DNA of 64,000 nt, taken from contig DRGL01000051.1 in the NCBI GenBank assembly GCA_011050085.1, positions 62,001 to 126,000 on the forward strand, read 5' to 3'. The position numbers were made by a program, and so were the translations under genes. The DNA comes from Pricia antarctica (GTDB lineage Bacteria > Bacteroidota > Bacteroidia > Flavobacteriales > Flavobacteriaceae). This document shows, piece by piece, positions 3,916 to 60,278 of this stretch (position 1 is the stretch's first letter; every line of letters begins with the position of its first letter). Below the pieces are notes generated by a model that was given only the letters and a program-made list of their open reading frames with translations, did no database searches and had not been told where the DNA came from.

Positions 3916-5358
3916 TTAGAAACTGATTAAGTAACCCAAAGATACGTAACCGTTTATTTTAGTAGCATTCACTATAAAATTTTCTGGTAAAACGCTGTTT
4001 GCCCGTTTTGTATATGCTTTGCTTATTGTATTATAGTACATATGAATGACTCCAACATCGACGAATATTTTGTTCTTTCTCCCAAATGCCAATCCGGTAC
4101 CGGCCATAAGCCGAGGCTTGAATTTTTCATCGATGCTTAGACCGGCTCCAAAGCCGAAATGCCAGAACATAGGCGAGTCGAGAACTTTACCGATTCGCTG
4201 ACCATATCGAATCATAGTGTTGATGCCCAATTCAAAGCTAGCGGTTTCCTCCTCCAAAAAATCATATACAGTCTGACCGTTCTCGACACGTTCTACAACG
4301 GAATAATTATTTTCCGGGTTTCCGGTCGCATAGAAACCAGTACTGACGCCCCAGAACGATTTCTCAATATCGGGAATGCGAAGTAAGGTCGAATAAGCGG
4401 ATAGCTTGGTATTTTTGTCCCGTGGTTTCAGATGTATAATCAATTCGTTGACATCTGAAAATCTTTGTATGGGAAGCGAGGTATACCTAAAATCAAGATT
4501 GTTCAGCACGGCTATAAGAACGGACGAAAATTTCCCATAATTCTCTGCCGATAGTTGTGCGATAAGATTATCTGAAGCTTTACGTAGCGCTTCGTAAACC
4601 TTTTTGATTTCTGCTGCAGACGCCTTTAGGTCTTTATTTTTGGAGACCGACACTTTATTGATTTCTAAAACCTGTAAAAATTCTGAATCTTCCTCCAAAA
4701 GCAGTTCCTTGGTTTCGACGATAGACTTTTTTGTTTGATCGAATGAATTAATGACGCCCATGATATCAACTTTGGTAGGGACAGCGCCAAAAACATTTCT
4801 ATCAACCGTAGACATGGTATTCTGAAAGCTTTCAGCTTGTTCAAACACTGCATCGACTTCGGCGCTTAGCATAGTAAGCTCGTTAAACTTGCTCTTTGCA
4901 CTAGATTTCAATCCGGAAAAATACGTGGTAAGGCTCTCATCTGATTGTACCTTGTCTATATCAAAATATTGAACGGTTGCAGTAGGGGCATTTGCTACAA
5001 ATTTTTTCACAACACTACTGATAGAGTTCGAATTCCCCAGAGAAGTCTTAATTCCGCCGAAGTCAACCAAGTCTAACAAACTGGCCGGTAGTTCTGCAGC
5101 GGTATCGATGTCTTCATTCAAAATGCTAACATCGAAAAGAAAGGTATTTACATTATCGATCCTGATACGGAAGAACTCTCCACTTTTAAGCGCATTGTAC
5201 TTTTCGATTTGTAGAGGGTCTATCCCCTTTTGATCATTCAAATCGATTATAATTTCAACAATTTTATCGGTATTGCCGACTACACTTTGTTGTTGGCCGA
5301 AGCTATAGCTACAAAAAACTAGGGTCAAAAAATGGTTTATGAACTTGAAGGTCTTCAT
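3916..5358 (-). CDS. Secreted protein with helical middle and barrel-like C-terminus
   Basis: About 480 residues. The chosen start at 5358 gives a clean signal peptide (MKTFKFINHF, hydrophobic core, cleavage after SYSFGQ); the longer frame adds eight residues before it. The middle (about 130-300) is rich in Lys, Glu, Ser and Ala and likely helical or coiled-coil. The last 110 residues alternate aromatic/hydrophobic and polar positions with Gly (FWHFGFGAGL, MAGTGLAFGR) and end in LGYLISF with a terminal Phe, which is typical of outer-membrane beta-strands. Probably exported to the outer membrane; function unknown. Confidence 0.75.
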   Translation of the reverse strand: MKTFKFINHFLTLVFCSYSFGQQQSVVGNTDKIVEIIIDLNDQKGIDPLQIEKYNALKSGEFFRIRIDNVNTFLFDVSILNEDIDTAAELPASLLDLVDFGGIKTSLGNSNSISSVVKKFVANAPTATVQYFDIDKVQSDESLTTYFSGLKSSAKSKFNELTMLSAEVDAVFEQAESFQNTMSTVDRNVFGAVPTKVDIMGVINSFDQTKKSIVETKELLLEEDSEFLQVLEINKVSVSKNKDLKASAAEIKKVYEALRKASDNLIAQLSAENYGKFSSVLIAVLNNLDFRYTSLPIQRFSDVNELIIHLKPRDKNTKLSAYSTLLRIPDIEKSFWGVSTGFYATGNPENNYSVVERVENGQTVYDFLEEETASFELGINTMIRYGQRIGKVLDSPMFWHFGFGAGLSIDEKFKPRLMAGTGLAFGRKNKIFVDVGVIHMYYNTISKAYTKRANSVLPENFIVNATKINGYVSLGYLISF

Positions 5359-54519: not shown

Positions 54520-55602
54520 TTAATCGATATCGCAACGCTGTTCCAAACGTATATCTCCCATTTCGCCACCCTCCAATTTAATGAGGCCATCACCGATTTC
54601 ATAGGTATATCTAGAGCCATTGAATTCAGTAGCATCCTGAAATTCCATTGTGACAAAAACCTTAAAATCTGAAACGCTGACGGACCATTTACCTTGTTTT
54701 TCAGGCGCTTCCTCAGCGTCTAAAATCAATATCCCATCCTCCATAAAAAAAAGTGTCTCTTCTTGATATTGGGTCGGACTATCATCAGATATCGTTTCGG
54801 GCCCTTTCACTTCCCACGAACAAGTAACCAACAGACTATAAAGGCTTTCTTTGGTAAAGTCGTTATCATTATAATCATCATCGTCATCTTCATCACAGCT
54901 ATCGACAGCTTTCCGCATGGCTTCCGCAAGTGCTTCATTACTGTTTACCGTAAATTCGGTACTATCATGTACTATATAAGTTATTGGGAAATCAATGCTA
55001 AGTAGGTCGGTGTCGGCCAGACCGGCCAAGAAACGACGGAGCTCTTGGTCATGGTTCACGACAATACTTCCCGTTTGCTGAAGTTCGGTATTATATGTGA
55101 AAAGACCTATCGGATAGGTCATGTCGATGCACTCAATATCGCTATCATCTCCTCCCTCTGTGCATTGCCTAGCTAATTCTTCTAAAACCGCTTCATTATC
55201 GATAACGATTTCCGTCTGATCGGAAAGTGTAGCCGTAACTGGATACCTAATTACCACGCTCCGCTGGACTTCATCGACAGCATCGAACGCCTGCTCAGCA
55301 TCTGCAGTATCTAAAATTATCTCGATTTTTTCAAAATCTTCCGTGTTTGCAATGGTCAGCTCTGAACCGTTTGCGATAACCGAATAAGGAAATTGGATTG
55401 CGATACAACTAGCCCCATCAACAATATTATCATAAGACCCATCGTAGGAAGTGGTACGTTCCATCATATCAACGACGTATGAATCGACTGTTAACGTGCG
55501 CTCGGCATCAATATCTTCCACGAACGGTTCTTCGTTTTGGCAGGCAATAAAATTCAACGATAAGGCCAAAAGGCAAAGCGATAATTTAAAAAAGTTATCC
55601 AT
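54520..55602 (-). CDS. Lipoprotein with four internal repeats and beta-rich C-terminal domain
   Basis: 360 residues. The lipobox is FIAC (Cys21). Four related units follow: FPYSVIANGSELTIANTEDF (about 68-98), YPVTATLSDQTEIVIDNEAV (117-147), YPIGLFTYNTEL..VVNHDQEL (161-193) and FPITYIVHDSTEFTVNSNEA (203-233). An Asp/Glu-rich linker (240-248) leads to a C-terminal beta domain (265-355) resembling lipocalin-like folds. It is divergent from the ECF sigma gene and shares the 134-base promoter region. A link to that signalling unit is inferred only from position. Family name not recognised. Confidence 0.82.
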   Translation of the reverse strand: MDNFFKLSLCLLALSLNFIACQNEEPFVEDIDAERTLTVDSYVVDMMERTTSYDGSYDNIVDGASCIAIQFPYSVIANGSELTIANTEDFEKIEIILDTADAEQAFDAVDEVQRSVVIRYPVTATLSDQTEIVIDNEAVLEELARQCTEGGDDSDIECIDMTYPIGLFTYNTELQQTGSIVVNHDQELRRFLAGLADTDLLSIDFPITYIVHDSTEFTVNSNEALAEAMRKAVDSCDEDDDDDYNDNDFTKESLYSLLVTCSWEVKGPETISDDSPTQYQEETLFFMEDGILILDAEEAPEKQGKWSVSVSDFKVFVTMEFQDATEFNGSRYTYEIGDGLIKLEGGEMGDIRLEQRCDID

Positions 55603-55736
55603 ATTTAAGACATTCGTGCCAACTCGAATTTGCTATAAATCAATTACTAAGACGTATTCATTTCTTGTAAAACACCCGCTAACAAAAATACCCTACTTCT
55701 TTAAAATTTTTCAGATATCTTTGAAAAAAATCCCCA

Positions 55737-56249
55737 TTGAAAAGTAAAGATACAGGCAATGTTTGCGAAGAGCAAGTATTCGATACAGTATTCAAGGCCC
55801 ATTCAAAAACGATTTTCAATTACATTTATTACAAATTCGGTAATGAGGAAAAAGCTTATGATGCCGTTCAGGAAGCCTTTGTAAAACTTTGGGAAAATTG
55901 CGCAAAGGTTGCTCCCGAAAAAGCAAAATCTTACGTTTATACGGTAGCGAATAACTTGTACCTAAACGTTATCAAAGCCGAAAAAGTACGTTTAAAATAT
56001 GCGGACAAAAGTTTAAAGACCACACACGAAAATCCGGAATTTCTTATGGAAGAGGCCCAATTCAAGGAAAAACTAAATCAAGCCCTTGATGCCCTGCCGG
56101 AAAACCAACGTATCACTTTTTTGCTACACCGAATCGACGGAAAAAAATATGCTGAAATTGCGGAGATGGAAGGGGTAAGCGTCAAAGCGATAGAGAAAAG
56201 AATGCACCTGGCACTTAAATCGCTACGGGAGAAAATAGAAGGTATTTGA
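55737..56249 (+). CDS. ECF RNA polymerase sigma factor
   Basis: 170 residues. Region 2 is FKAHSKTIFNYIYYKFGNEE KAYDAVQEAFVKLWEN and region 4 is ALDALPENQRITFLLHRIDG KKYAEIAEMEGVSVKAIEKR. It resembles FecI-type sigma factors. The only in-frame start is TTG at 55737; a TGA lies a few codons upstream. A TATCTTTG sequence (the Bacteroidota -7 consensus TAnnTTTG) sits at 55716-55723, so the leader would be very short. Immediately followed by its FecR partner. Confidence 0.92.
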   Translation: MKSKDTGNVCEEQVFDTVFKAHSKTIFNYIYYKFGNEEKAYDAVQEAFVKLWENCAKVAPEKAKSYVYTVANNLYLNVIKAEKVRLKYADKSLKTTHENPEFLMEEAQFKEKLNQALDALPENQRITFLLHRIDGKKYAEIAEMEGVSVKAIEKRMHLALKSLREKIEGI

Positions 56250-56301
56250 AAAGTAGGGTTTTTCCGAAACAAATTGTTATTAAGAGACTAAGATAGAATC
56301 G

Positions 56302-57213
56302 ATGCAAGAAAATTATCTGGCGAAATGGCTTAACGGCGACCTTAACGAGGAGGAACTAAAGGAGTTTAAGAATTCCGAGGAGTACCCTACTTACAAGCGT
56401 ATCGTTGATGCTACCACAGATTTGAAAGCCCCTATTTTCGATTCCGAGACATCCTATTCCGCAGTAAGAAATCGTTTGGAACTTAACGGGTCCAAAATCG
56501 TTAAACTACATCCCTTCAGAAACTTTTTGCGGGTTGCAGCTGCTGCTGCAGTTATTATGGTAGGTGCCTACTTCTATCTTAACACACTGAACGAAAGTAT
56601 ATCAACAGCTTTTGCCGAAAATAGGGAAATCAGTTTACCTGATACTTCAACGGTAATTTTAAACGCCGATTCAAACCTATCCTACAGTAAACGTAAATGG
56701 GAGAAAAATAGAAATGTAAAGCTTAAGGGAGAAGCCTTTTTTAAAGTTGCCAAAGGAAAAAAATTCACCGTGACCACAGACGACGGAAATATATCGGTCT
56801 TAGGCACGCAGTTCAACGTTGAGAACAGGCATGGCTATTTCGAGGTTTCCTGCTTTGAAGGGCTAGTTAGTGTACGATTTAACGACATGGTTGTGAAACT
56901 TGAGGCAGGAAAATCATTTGTTGCGATAAACGGGGAAATTACCGAGGTGGGATCGCCAAACGAATCAGAACCTTCTTGGTTGAAAGATGAGAGTTCATTT
57001 AAAAGTGTTCCCTTAAAATATGTGCTCGATGAGTTTGAGCGTCAACACGATATAGTTGTTACAACAGAGAATATAGATGTAAAACAATTATTTACAGGCT
57101 CTTTCAGTAATTCCGACCCCAAGCTAGCCTTGAAAAGTATTAGTGTCCCTTCGCAAATAAAGTTTAAATTTGAGGGCGACAAAGTGCTCTTCTATGGCGA
57201 AAACACTCCGTAA
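56302..57213 (+). CDS. FecR-family anti-sigma factor
   Basis: 303 residues. The N-terminal cytoplasmic part (1-70) binds the sigma factor. A membrane segment FLRVAAAAAVIMVGAYFYL is near 73-91, and the FecR periplasmic domain includes FFKVAKGKKFTVTTDDGNIS VLGTQFNV and CFEGLVSVRF. The last 70 residues (VPLKYVLDEFERQHDIVV) are the DUF4974-type C-terminus that contacts the receptor's STN domain. It overlaps the TonB receptor gene by 20 bases, which suggests coupled translation. Confidence 0.93.
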   Translation: MQENYLAKWLNGDLNEEELKEFKNSEEYPTYKRIVDATTDLKAPIFDSETSYSAVRNRLELNGSKIVKLHPFRNFLRVAAAAAVIMVGAYFYLNTLNESISTAFAENREISLPDTSTVILNADSNLSYSKRKWEKNRNVKLKGEAFFKVAKGKKFTVTTDDGNISVLGTQFNVENRHGYFEVSCFEGLVSVRFNDMVVKLEAGKSFVAINGEITEVGSPNESEPSWLKDESSFKSVPLKYVLDEFERQHDIVVTTENIDVKQLFTGSFSNSDPKLALKSISVPSQIKFKFEGDKVLFYGENTP

Positions 57214-59716
57214 ATGTACCTATAGTCTACTTTGCCTTGTCTTTTTTTTAATCGCCAAGAACACCCACGCACAAGAAGTTGAGACCTCCATATCTTTAGT
57301 TTCCTATCTACAAGAACTTGAACGAAATTTCGATATCAAATTCTCGTATGCCGACGATAACATCCGAACTATCCGTATTAGCCTTCCAAAAACGGAAGGG
57401 CTAGAGAATATTTTAAAGAATATTCAATGGCAGACGAAGCTTCAGATTCAAAGACTTAACAATCGCTATTACACGCTGACTCAGCGTGCATCTCTTGATA
57501 TCTGTGGCACTATCTTGGACAATTTTGAACAAAATACGGTTCCTGGAGCTTCCATAGAAGTCTTGGGCACCGAAACTGCGGTCATCACCGATTCAGAAGG
57601 TCATTTTGCTATTCGTAATGTACCGCGTACCGCCAAAATTCAAATCAAGCATTTAGGCTATAAATCCCTATTTATCGATGCTGGCGCTTTAGCGGAAACG
57701 CAACCTTGCAAAACCTATTTACTTGATCAATTTTATCAAGAATTAGAAGAAGTAGTGGTAATCGAGCTACTCACTAAAGGTCTCGTAAAACAGATTGACG
57801 GAAGTATAGAAATGAACAGTGAGCGACTAGGTATTCTACCTGGTTTGATCGAGCCTGATGTTTTACAGACCGTTCAGGCCCTGCCCGGTATTGAAAGTAT
57901 CGATGAAACAGTTTCCAACATCAATATTCGCGGAGGTACCAATGACCAGAACCTTGTACTTTGGAACGGTATCAAGATGTACCAATCCGGACATTTTTTC
58001 GGTTTGATATCTGCTTTTAATCCCTACCTGAGCGATAAGGTTATTTTGACCAAAAATGGTACAAGTGCCCAATATGGTGAAGGTGTCAGTGGCATTATCG
58101 ATATACGCACAAAAGATTCTATTTCCGATCAAATGTTTGGGGGTGCCGGTATAAACCTAATTGGGGGCGATGTATATGGCCAAATACCGATTTCGGATAA
58201 GCTAGCCGTGCAAGTTTCCGCTAGACGTTCCCTTACTGATGTCTTGAACACGCCAACCTATAAAAAATTCTTTACCCGCGTTTTCGAAGACAGCGAGGTA
58301 AATCGTGACGGCAATTTTTACTTTTATGATTTTACGGGGAAACTTTTATATGACATCAACAAAAATCAGCGGGCCCGTCTCAGCTTTATCAGCATTAATA
58401 ATCTTTTGGAGTATTCAGAAGAAGAAATGGATTCCGGTAAACGCACCCGCAGTGACCTCGACCAAAGCAATCTTTCGTTTGGGGGAAGCTTACATAGCAG
58501 CTGGAACAATAAATTCTCGTCATTTTTAAATATGTACCATACCCGTTACGATTTAGAAGCCCGTAACACATCATCCAATGCAAAACAGACCCTGTTTCAA
58601 AATAATCAAGTACAGGAGTCCGCGGTGAAATTAAATACCCAGTATACATTGAGCAACCATTTTACCTGGCTGAATGGCTACCAATACAGCGAAACAGCCA
58701 TCACAAATGCCACCGACGTTACCCAACCCCCCTTTCAAAGCAACGTAAAAAATATTATCCGAGGTCAAGCGCTATATTCCGAAATCAGCTATACCTCAAA
58801 CGACCAGAAACTGTTCGTCAGGGGTGGCGTACGATTGAACCAGCTCGAAAATCCCGATACCTTCAAAGAAGTATTGGCAGAACCACGGTTAAGCCTAAAT
58901 TATGCTATCACTCGAGAACTTACGTTTCAATTATTGGGAGAATTTAAGAGTCAGGCTACTAATCAGATCATCGATCTCGAACAAAATTTTCTAGGTATAG
59001 AAAAACGACGATGGATTGTATCCGATAGGGATAATTTGCCTATCACCAAGAGCAAACAGGCCGCTATAGGCTTTAATTACGAATATGAGAACTTGTATAT
59101 CGGTGTAGAGGGATTCTATAAAATTGTAAATGGAATAAGCACAACCACTCAAGGTTTTCAAAACCAAAACCAGTTTAACGGAGAAATTGGAAAATATGAA
59201 ATCAGGGGTGTAGAAGTCTTGGTCAACAAAAAAATGGACGCTTATAGTATTTGGGCCAGCTATGGTTACAACTTAAATACCTATCATTTTCCGGATATCG
59301 TTCCTCAGGAATTCCCGAATAACTTTGATATACGGCATACAGGTACTCTAGCCGGTAGTTATACTTTCGATCATCTAAAATTAAGTTTGGGGTTAAATTA
59401 CCATACCGGAAAACCAGTAACAGAGCCGCAGGCCGATGAACCGATAGATGATACCTTTTTTCCATTTCGAATAAATTATCAATCACCAAATACCAATCGC
59501 TTGCCCGAATATGTAAGGGCCGATGCTTCGGCTATTTATGATTTTGATATCGGTACTGGGGTAAAAGGCTCCGCAGGATTATCGGTTCTCAACGTAACGG
59601 ACCGCAAAAATATTTTAAATGCGTATTACCGTCTTAATGATGGGAATGAGATTGAAAAAGTTGAGAATGTTTCTTTAGGGTTTACACCTAATGTTAGTTT
59701 TAGGGTTAAATTTTAG
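57194..59716 (+). CDS. TonB-dependent receptor with STN signalling domain
   Basis: 840 residues from ATG 57194. The signal peptide (SLLCLVFFLIAKNTHAQ) is followed by an STN domain (about 25-95: SYLQELERNFDIKFSYADDN), a carboxypeptidase-regulatory-like domain (105-185: GASIEVLGTETAVITDSEGH), the plug (215-320: LIEPDVLQTVQALPGIESID, NINIRGGTNDQNLVLWNG) and the outer-membrane barrel ending in NVSFRVKF with a terminal Phe. Together with the sigma and FecR genes it forms a surface-signalling system: the loaded receptor activates the sigma factor. The ligand is unknown. There is no SusD-like partner, which argues against a polysaccharide SusCD pair and for a siderophore, metal or other small ligand. 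Confidence 0.93.
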   Translation: MAKTLRKCTYSLLCLVFFLIAKNTHAQEVETSISLVSYLQELERNFDIKFSYADDNIRTIRISLPKTEGLENILKNIQWQTKLQIQRLNNRYYTLTQRASLDICGTILDNFEQNTVPGASIEVLGTETAVITDSEGHFAIRNVPRTAKIQIKHLGYKSLFIDAGALAETQPCKTYLLDQFYQELEEVVVIELLTKGLVKQIDGSIEMNSERLGILPGLIEPDVLQTVQALPGIESIDETVSNINIRGGTNDQNLVLWNGIKMYQSGHFFGLISAFNPYLSDKVILTKNGTSAQYGEGVSGIIDIRTKDSISDQMFGGAGINLIGGDVYGQIPISDKLAVQVSARRSLTDVLNTPTYKKFFTRVFEDSEVNRDGNFYFYDFTGKLLYDINKNQRARLSFISINNLLEYSEEEMDSGKRTRSDLDQSNLSFGGSLHSSWNNKFSSFLNMYHTRYDLEARNTSSNAKQTLFQNNQVQESAVKLNTQYTLSNHFTWLNGYQYSETAITNATDVTQPPFQSNVKNIIRGQALYSEISYTSNDQKLFVRGGVRLNQLENPDTFKEVLAEPRLSLNYAITRELTFQLLGEFKSQATNQIIDLEQNFLGIEKRRWIVSDRDNLPITKSKQAAIGFNYEYENLYIGVEGFYKIVNGISTTTQGFQNQNQFNGEIGKYEIRGVEVLVNKKMDAYSIWASYGYNLNTYHFPDIVPQEFPNNFDIRHTGTLAGSYTFDHLKLSLGLNYHTGKPVTEPQADEPIDDTFFPFRINYQSPNTNRLPEYVRADASAIYDFDIGTGVKGSAGLSVLNVTDRKNILNAYYRLNDGNEIEKVENVSLGFTPNVSFRVKF

Positions 59717-59765: not shown

Positions 59766-60005
59766 TTAAGCTGTTTTAGCGCGGTTGGCTTTTGTAGAAA
59801 AAGTAAGTTCCTTAGTTACCCTAGTATTGATTCGCTTATACAAACGCGCTACTTCGATGGTAGATTCTAGAGACACCTCTTTAGATGAACCATCAACACT
59901 AACAGTAGTTTCTGTTACAACTTCATTTACCGTATCATTTGCTGTTTGCGCCTGAAGGTTAACTCCGATAAAAAGAACAAAAATTAAAGTTGCGATAGTT
60001 TTCAT
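59766..60005 (-). CDS. Small secreted hypothetical protein
   Basis: 79 residues from the ATG at 60005, starting with a signal peptide (MKTIATLIFVLFIGVNLQAQ). The mature part (about 59 residues) is rich in Thr, Val and Ser, then basic (YKRINTRVTKELTFSTKANR), with no cysteine. It is convergent with the TonB receptor. Function unknown. Confidence 0.62.
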   Translation of the reverse strand: MKTIATLIFVLFIGVNLQAQTANDTVNEVVTETTVSVDGSSKEVSLESTIEVARLYKRINTRVTKELTFSTKANRAKTA

Positions 60006-60278
60006 GACTTGCGTTTTTATATAAATAGAACGCAGCACACCGTCTTGAAGGAAGTTGTAAAACGCTGAAAAACACCTTATTTTCGGTAATCGACATACCT
60101 TCGGTCAAGAGGTATAAAAGTGTCGATAAACGGATTTGTGTGCAGAAACACTTTATCGAAAGAAGCTGCCGTTCACCCTGAGACTTTAGTGTTTACTTTG
60201 AAGATTAAAGCATAAATTGAAGGCTTATACTTGTTATTGTACTGTACCTTTATAAGGATAAGATGCAGAGAATACGCC

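Follow-up and report, generated by a model that had tools for sequence, protein, structure and literature searches.

A candidate receptor-coupled sigma factor pathway in Pricia antarctica with a repeat-bearing lipoprotein and a small RNA among its possible targets

The locus

The stretch of DNA analyzed here, called the window below, covers 64,000 nucleotides of Pricia antarctica, a member of the Flavobacteriaceae (assembly GCA_011050085.1, 5.48 Mb in 84 contigs; contig DRGL01000051.1, positions 62,001 to 126,000 of the forward strand). Near its end, a 360-amino-acid lipoprotein gene without a Pfam match (54520..55602, minus strand) faces three genes on the plus strand, for an extracytoplasmic function (ECF) sigma factor (55737..56249), a FecR-like anti-sigma factor (56302..57213), and a TonB-dependent receptor (57170..59716). 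This facing arrangement, observed in an earlier sequence-only reading that placed all four genes correctly, is confirmed. New in this analysis are a 28-bp ECF-type promoter element shared by the lipoprotein gene and fecR, and a third site of this kind that comes with an unlisted candidate RNA of about 100 nucleotides.

The three plus-strand products resemble the parts of a surface-signaling system. Pfam models Sigma70_r2 (PF04542, 40.2 bits) and Sigma70_r4_2 (PF08281, 60.6 bits) both score above their cut-offs in the sigma factor, as does NCBIfam TIGR02937 (88.6 against 42.9), while TIGR02985 falls below its own (117.4 against 126.4). The FecR-like protein matches PF04773 at 77.5 bits (cut-off, 24) and has one hydrophobic stretch by eye. 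Within the receptor, CarbopepD_reg_2 and a plug domain (PF07715, 31.9 bits) accompany an N-terminal FecR_C match (PF16344, residues 43 to 100) that at 24.8 bits is barely over its cut-off of 24.4. The STN domain claimed for the receptor in the sequence-only reading thus holds as a marginally scoring STN-like FecR_C domain, Pfam's own STN model not being reported. No SusC or SusD model from Pfam or NCBIfam matched.

Association across genomes

Genomes were sampled at two levels, 299 from the family and 392 from the phylum. A pattern-based scan of genome contigs found no lipoprotein relative; a genome similarity search did find them, in 196 of the 299 family genomes. Gene order was counted in 40 loci of 20 kb, made up of the 20 top matches and 20 more picked by hand for paralogues and distance, with loci L101-L120 and L154-L166 excluded from this count and given separately. 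In 40 of 40 the lipoprotein gene is divergent from a sigma-FecR-receptor set, the deviations being one tandem lipoprotein pair, one split receptor open reading frame (ORF), and one extra ORF called between sigma and FecR. The split receptor, in L054, reads as ORFs of 253 and 579 amino acids, possibly through a frameshift. The neighborhood is therefore not random, and the lipoprotein, which had been held not to be a standard member of such operons, turns out to be the rule in this sigma/receptor subfamily.

The association extends beyond these loci. The module adjoins ffh/folD, as it does in the window, or lies at other sites, and several genomes carry both kinds. Among the 392 phylum genomes, 44 match the lipoprotein, of which 39 belong to the family and 5 do not. 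The best locus was fetched for 30 of the 44, and 29 of these loci have a sigma gene no more than 1.5 kb away; the exception, in genome G042, is an orphan lipoprotein that nevertheless keeps the promoter element (17.8 bits). Among 20 further loci chosen by hand for weak or distant matches, a sigma gene is directly adjacent in 17, one ORF away in 2, and missing in 1, and in four of the 17 (L101 and L103-L105) the sigma gene runs in the same direction and FecR is not next to it. As a separate observation, L101 and L103-L106 hold repeat-domain lipoproteins near a different ECF sigma factor without an adjacent FecR, and L101 also shows an Lcl_C match below cut-off.

Presence of the lipoprotein is matched by presence of a close receptor. 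All 12 lipoprotein-positive genomes tested have a receptor scoring at least 541 bits, and in 18 of 20 lipoprotein-negative genomes (from 103 negatives) the best receptor reaches at most 134 bits. In one of the two exceptions the single-sequence search had overlooked a divergent repeat lipoprotein, and in the other a DUF4249 gene follows the receptor instead. Related receptor loci without the repeat lipoprotein have a lipoprotein-like gene of about 280 to 325 amino acids downstream, which was DUF4249 in all five tested (seven seen). Paralogous slots vary: the lipoprotein of L158 has only the C-terminal-type domain, with a weak Lipocalin_4 match below cut-off, that of L159 has repeats and an Asp-rich tail, and L160 is a sigma-FecR-receptor set with no recognizable lipoprotein partner. 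Downstream of the receptor gene in the window, a small secreted-looking ORF (59766-60038, minus strand) lies convergent with it.

Promoter elements at the lipoprotein gene and fecR

A motif search of the 160 bp upstream of 42 lipoprotein genes (41 relatives and that of the window; best of 25 starts) found a 28-bp ECF-type element in front of every one, with a mean of 26.8 bits, compared with 8.3 to 8.7 bits a site in eight letter-shuffled sets (best of 4 starts). Its consensus is a -35 region of (G/T)(T/C)AGG(G/A)..TTTT and a -10 region of TTGTT(A/T)T. In 31 of the 42, 30 to 38 bp separate the end of the element from the start codon (overall range, 20 to 78); the distance is 66 bp in the window, where the element reads GTAGGGTATTTT-N8-GGTGTTTT (55669..55696, minus strand). 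When the matrix was scanned over the window (127,946 positions), this training site ranked first at 25.9 bits, and second was a site that had not been used in training, GTAGGGTTTTT-N9-ATTGTTAT at 56253..56280 on the plus strand (18.0 bits), in the gap between the sigma gene and fecR.

The fecR site recurs wherever the close relatives of the module were examined. Taking as a threshold 3.7 bits, the 99th percentile of 300 random 200-bp window stretches, all 41 of the fecR upstream regions, none of them used in training, exceed it (minimum, 4.1), as do 3 of 433 upstream regions of other ORFs in the same loci, none above 10 bits. Random 181-bp stretches of these loci exceed it in 12 of 400 cases, because such stretches can include true sites. 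The claim that the sigma factor drives the receptor is thus consistent with an ECF-type element directly upstream of the fecR-receptor pair in 41 of 41 loci. The further claim that the lipoprotein shares a promoter region with the sigma gene was right about the divergent layout and wrong about mere sharing, since the lipoprotein has a promoter element of its own. Where the gene is duplicated in tandem (L065:8057-11760), each copy has one.

That the lipoprotein merely neighbors the operon by chance or hitch-hiking is very improbable indeed, set against the 40 of 40 loci, the presence in more than one chromosomal context, and the tandem and orphan copies with the same element.

Which sigma factor reads the element

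Several patterns tie the element to the sigma factor encoded beside it. The -35 octamers of the two module sites resemble each other within a locus (identity, 7.20 of 8) more than when permuted (5.48; 0 of 2000 permutations reach the observed value). The -10 octamers agree less strongly (6.41 versus 6.07; 1 of 2000) and the spacers agree as well (3.15 versus 2.57; 9 of 2000), so shared ancestry contributes to the within-locus match. When 41 sigma factors were sorted by -35 class, however, the eight columns in perfect step with the class all fell at residues 132 to 160, in region 4 (Pfam r4_2 spans residues 111 to 163), and residues 40, 30, and 19 came in only at ranks 10 to 12. Ancestry by itself would not be expected to restrict the best-tracking columns to region 4, and the neighboring sigma factor probably reads the element.

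The sigma gene itself seems to be transcribed differently. On its strand of the intergenic region the ECF element was not seen (2 of 42 regions score above 0; maximum, 4.1), and 18 of 40 intergenic regions contain the motif TAnnTTTG there, against 2.8 expected from shuffles. In the window this sigma-A-type -7 box is TATCTTTG, at 55716..55723 on the plus strand. PMC9723704 reports TAnnTTTG as the primary-sigma box of F. psychrophilum.

Within the P. antarctica genome, sites of this promoter type are few. With 3 mismatches allowed, the strict lipoprotein-type pattern finds 3 sites and its reversed control 6, and the lipoprotein site is the sole one with fewer than 3 mismatches; a looser pattern with 1 mismatch gives 4 sites (lipoprotein, fecR, RNA, and a VgrG-like ORF), against 2 in the control. 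The last of these, an 18.2-bit site at L196:7144-7171 (plus strand, contig C36), lies 40 bp upstream of an ORF that is VgrG-like by eye (L196:7211-9004) and may be there by chance.

Promoter-type sites were also seen at other genes in relatives. Those in L205 and L207, near position 5000 (genomes G129 and G018), are followed by another short stretch of a similar kind, which contains no long ORF and might be a second small RNA or a peptide. In L206 (3351-5661) the site is upstream of a 497-amino-acid lipoprotein that by eye looks like a peptidase and whose own, divergent ECF sigma gene is a different one, and in L210, L211, and L212-L214, from several genomes, sites stand before large secreted-looking proteins of about 1,230 and at least 1,650 amino acids.

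Such sites, which adjoin a different sigma gene in L206 and in some genomes precede unrelated genes, are what would be expected if an ECF sigma factor with the same -35/-10 preference, and not the neighbor, controlled the lipoprotein and the RNA. We consider this improbable, as residues of the neighboring sigma factor vary in step with the -35 region at both module sites and four sigma-FecR-receptor loci of other types (L162, L163, L164, and L166) lack the element. It is also absent from L158, likewise without the repeat lipoprotein.

A third site and a candidate small RNA

Scanning 12 genomes for the promoter pattern with at most one mismatch returned 53 sites, compared with 12 for the reversed control, and among them a third site recurs in nine genomes, including P. 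antarctica (contig C36, L196). It lies between genes that are pdxH-like and guaA-like (named by eye from the proteins of L196, L197, L200, and L202). Downstream is a conserved 30-nucleotide stretch, [TC]ATGTGTTTAGGTTGG-Tn-GATTTTGAT, and after it an intrinsic terminator whose stem sequence differs between genomes. Two-sided changes occur in 5 of 19 predicted RNA pairs, the terminator part being imperfectly aligned, and the copy in P. antarctica folds at -27.4 kcal/mol (z, -4.37). A tiny peptide was considered in place of an RNA and rejected because the internal T-run ranges from 4 to 7 bases between genomes.

A covariance model finds the RNA once each in 39 of the 299 family genomes, all 39 of which are lipoprotein positive (hypergeometric, 1.6e-8, kinship uncorrected). 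At 20 of 20 loci found without use of the promoter (7 plus 13), the element precedes the RNA with scores of 9.1 to 34.4; 30 of the 39 RNA-positive genomes were among those fetched. Rfam assigned no family at gathering score to L196, L202, L209, or L221, and the RNA of L209 is overlapped below gathering by RF01402 (28.1 of 60) and RF02891 (30.4 of 40). A search in 14 genomes for long antisense targets of the RNA core (19-mer, at most 3 mismatches) gave, besides the RNA's own locus, 3-mismatch matches at about the level of the reversed control, and the module genes gave no better duplex energies at their start regions than other window genes did. The RNA may nonetheless be one that regulates in trans.

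The lipoprotein

The lipoprotein consists of a signal peptide (55543..55602; this and the following features are on the minus strand), four repeats (55273..55407, 55153..55266, 55015..55134, and 54892..55014), an acidic linker (C-D-E-D-D-D-D-D...; 54853..54897) with conserved Asp columns, and one C-terminal domain (54523..54852). The four repeats that the sequence-only reading had seen are borne out by profile-profile comparison of repeat blocks with hhalign in a 62-sequence alignment: five of the six repeat pairs match at 93 to 98% probability (repeats 1 and 3 at 22%), and the two halves match each other at 97.7% (E, 2e-12), versus at most 1.3% for 20 column-shuffled controls. The repeat unit had been written Y/F-P-x-x-x..T/S-E, a wording better replaced by (Y/F/L)P around an invariant proline in a strand pair, followed by a helix. 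One such proline per repeat (P52, P101, P144, and P186 of the mature protein) is invariant in the 62 sequences.

AlphaFold2 models agree with this division. The whole lipoprotein (42 sequences) reached a mean predicted local distance difference test score (pLDDT) of 81.6 and a predicted template modeling score (pTM) of 0.52, with pLDDT below 50 at mature residues 218 to 227, in the acidic linker; the repeat part alone (62 sequences) reached 84.2 and 0.70. The predictions contain four beta-beta-alpha units and a distinct beta domain, the latter as the sequence-only reading had proposed. Cysteines flank repeats 1-2 and 3-4, with all four present in 56 of 62 sequences, and among 37 module segments both flanking cysteines are present in 31, both absent in 4, and only one present in 2. 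This pattern suggests a disulfide within each two-repeat module; a C127-C138 pairing is also conceivable, because four related sequences lack both of these residues.

Searches by sequence and fold place the repeat domain in no known group. The window lipoprotein met no Pfam family at an E value of 1 or less, including DUF4249 (PF14054) and SusD, its repeats alone met none at 10 or less and thus not DUF7767 (PF24962), and NCBIfam and PDB sequence searches gave nothing usable. Among 16 repeat-bearing relatives, one (L110) passes a Pfam cut-off, for DUF7767 (35.6 bits where 27 are required, over a best stretch of 29 residues), L112 has weak Rib-type matches below cut-off (21.0 against 27), and the remaining 14 have no match above any cut-off. 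Repeat number varies among relatives by eye, and L110:9555-10553 is a seven-repeat lipoprotein without flanking cysteines. Fold searches with the predicted repeat domain gave nothing convincing (best Foldseek E, 0.074, probability 0.07; best VIA-align Z, 5.1), which does not show that the predicted fold is new.

For the C-terminal domain, VIA-align of the predicted structure (mature residues 229 to 336) points to a lipocalin-like barrel, the best comparisons being with 8u2f_B (Z, 11.6; root mean square deviation, 2.3; 101 aligned residues) and 4qrl (Z, 10.6; 2.5; 92 residues), whereas Foldseek found no match at an E value of 0.001 or less. Among the many lipocalin-like matches are potempin E (Z, 9.7) and U-Omp19, a protease inhibitor (Z, 7.3). 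By eye, the domain is present in one to three copies in relatives, which makes a truncation of the window gene relative to its 460- to 600-amino-acid homologues an unneeded reading.

In another reading the lipoprotein acts as a brake or lid: produced once the pathway has been activated, it would block the receptor or its signaling and thereby shut the circuit down. Its promoter type is shared with fecR, whose product is often inhibitory, but the receptor sits behind the same promoter, and beyond potempin E and U-Omp19 among the fold matches there is no sequence hint of inhibition. We regard a brake as improbable.

The lipoprotein may be placed on the cell surface. PMC5080379 describes a Bacteroidetes surface-export signal, K-(D/E)2 or Q-A-(D/E)2, directly after the lipidated Cys. 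In the window protein the lipobox Cys21 is followed by Q-N-E-E, and all 42 relatives have Glu at +4 (23 of 42 with two acidic residues at +4/+5) and Gln or Arg at +2, where the script that picked lipoboxes demanded Q, R, K, or S.

A possible surface-signaling circuit

Taken together, these features may describe a FecI/FecR/FecA-type surface-signaling circuit in which the sigma factor activates the genes for a lipoprotein that captures ligand, for its own receptor and anti-sigma factor, and for a small RNA, a reading we hold to be slightly better than an even bet. A housekeeping promoter would supply a basal amount of sigma factor, which FecR would hold, as the protein families suggest, until the N-terminal domain of a ligand-bound receptor signals through FecR and sets it free. 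Free sigma factor would then fire the promoters found at the divergent lipoprotein gene and at the fecR-receptor pair and, in the subclade that includes this genome, that of the RNA of about 100 nucleotides elsewhere in the genome. At the surface, the repeat modules and the lipocalin-like domain would capture ligand or present it to the receptor, much as DUF4249 proteins are proposed to work with the sister receptors, and the small RNA would adjust other messages while the pathway is on. We infer that the lipoprotein serves the receptor, and a surface ligand-binding array working with it, as the sequence-only reading imagined, is plausible given the export-signal-like N terminus and the predicted lipocalin-like domain; overall, that interpretation is partly supported.

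Several observations weigh against this circuit. The genomes are related, and the association counts are not independent events. Only 11 of 25 more distant or paralogous lipoprotein genes exceed 3.7 bits, some starts having been guessed wrongly, and fecR of further lipoprotein-bearing loci does so in 11 of 16, with L107, L108, L109, L111, and L156 failing. The element was not seen in the distant relatives L108, L109, and L111, and by eye L107 and L159 have a GTAGGG -35 with a different -10. L160 carries the element (21.2 bits) despite having no repeat lipoprotein, which shows that lipoprotein loci are not alone in having it, and since the same pattern stands before other genes in relatives, other sigma factors may read it. 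The C-Q-N-E-E start of the window lipoprotein lacks the Lys of the optimal C-x-K-(D/E)2, which is complete in 7 of 42 relatives. A PDB sequence search with the receptor found no relative at an E value of 0.001 or less from which a ligand might be named.

A different kind of output is also conceivable. In E. coli, both envelope genes and small RNAs are under the control of sigma-E, and by analogy the receptor-like protein here might sense the state of the outer membrane or surface, with the lipoprotein and RNA as protective outputs of an envelope-homeostasis response. A small RNA in the promoter group would fit, as would the variable architecture of the lipoprotein slot, from one to three C-terminal domains to the lipocalin-like-only form of L158 and the Asp-rich tail of L159. 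The receptor, however, is of full length in its C-terminal region and has not lost the plug domain, and sister receptors are followed by DUF4249 genes, transporter partners as proposed in PMC11003636. We consider envelope homeostasis rather unlikely, if the most serious competitor to a ligand-responsive circuit.

Few signals and targets have been assigned to the sigma-FecR-TonB receptor operons that are so common in Bacteroidota. Here candidate target promoters can be read directly from sequence, the set of putative targets in this genome is small (lipoprotein, receptor, and small RNA), and the partner lipoprotein is marked by a repeat domain without a Pfam match, so that ligand, regulon, and RNA function become testable by a few deletions. 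The promoter signature could also be used to assign regulons in many genomes.

Comparison with known systems

A literature search of one PMC subset, mostly titles and abstract openings, returned no description of this system. There is about an even chance that it represents a receptor-coupled ECF sigma pathway of Bacteroidota controlling a trans-acting small RNA and a surface lipoprotein built from an undescribed two-repeat module, in addition to its own receptor. To our knowledge, no FecIR-type surface-signaling circuit has an RNA arm.

TonB receptors paired with surface lipoproteins are known in Bacteroidota as the SusC/SusD and BtuB/BtuG types. The present pair would likewise join a TonB receptor to a cognate surface lipoprotein, and it differs in matching no SusC or SusD model. 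DUF4249 lipoproteins of the BT2172/BT2173 type are proposed in PMC11003636 to function with their TonB transporters. Receptors related to ours are followed by such lipoprotein-like genes, but the window lipoprotein is divergent and not downstream, and has no DUF4249 match. With the bacterial lipocalin-like domains of 4qrl, 3hty, and 8u2f (ToxS), its C-terminal domain appears to have the fold in common, although by sequence the protein matches nothing in Pfam. Compared with the small RNAs of E. coli sigma-E, the likeness is an ECF sigma factor with a small RNA among its putative targets; the sigma subfamily is another, the anti-sigma factor is receptor coupled, and no sequence relation was shown. 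A close parallel is FecI-FecR-FecA, which likewise combines an ECF sigma factor, a FecR-domain anti-sigma factor, and a TonB receptor with a FecR_C/STN-like N terminus in one locus. In P. antarctica, by contrast, the sigma-type element stands at fecR-receptor and at the lipoprotein gene and was not found before the sigma gene, a divergent lipoprotein belongs to the set, and the putative regulon extends to a small RNA.

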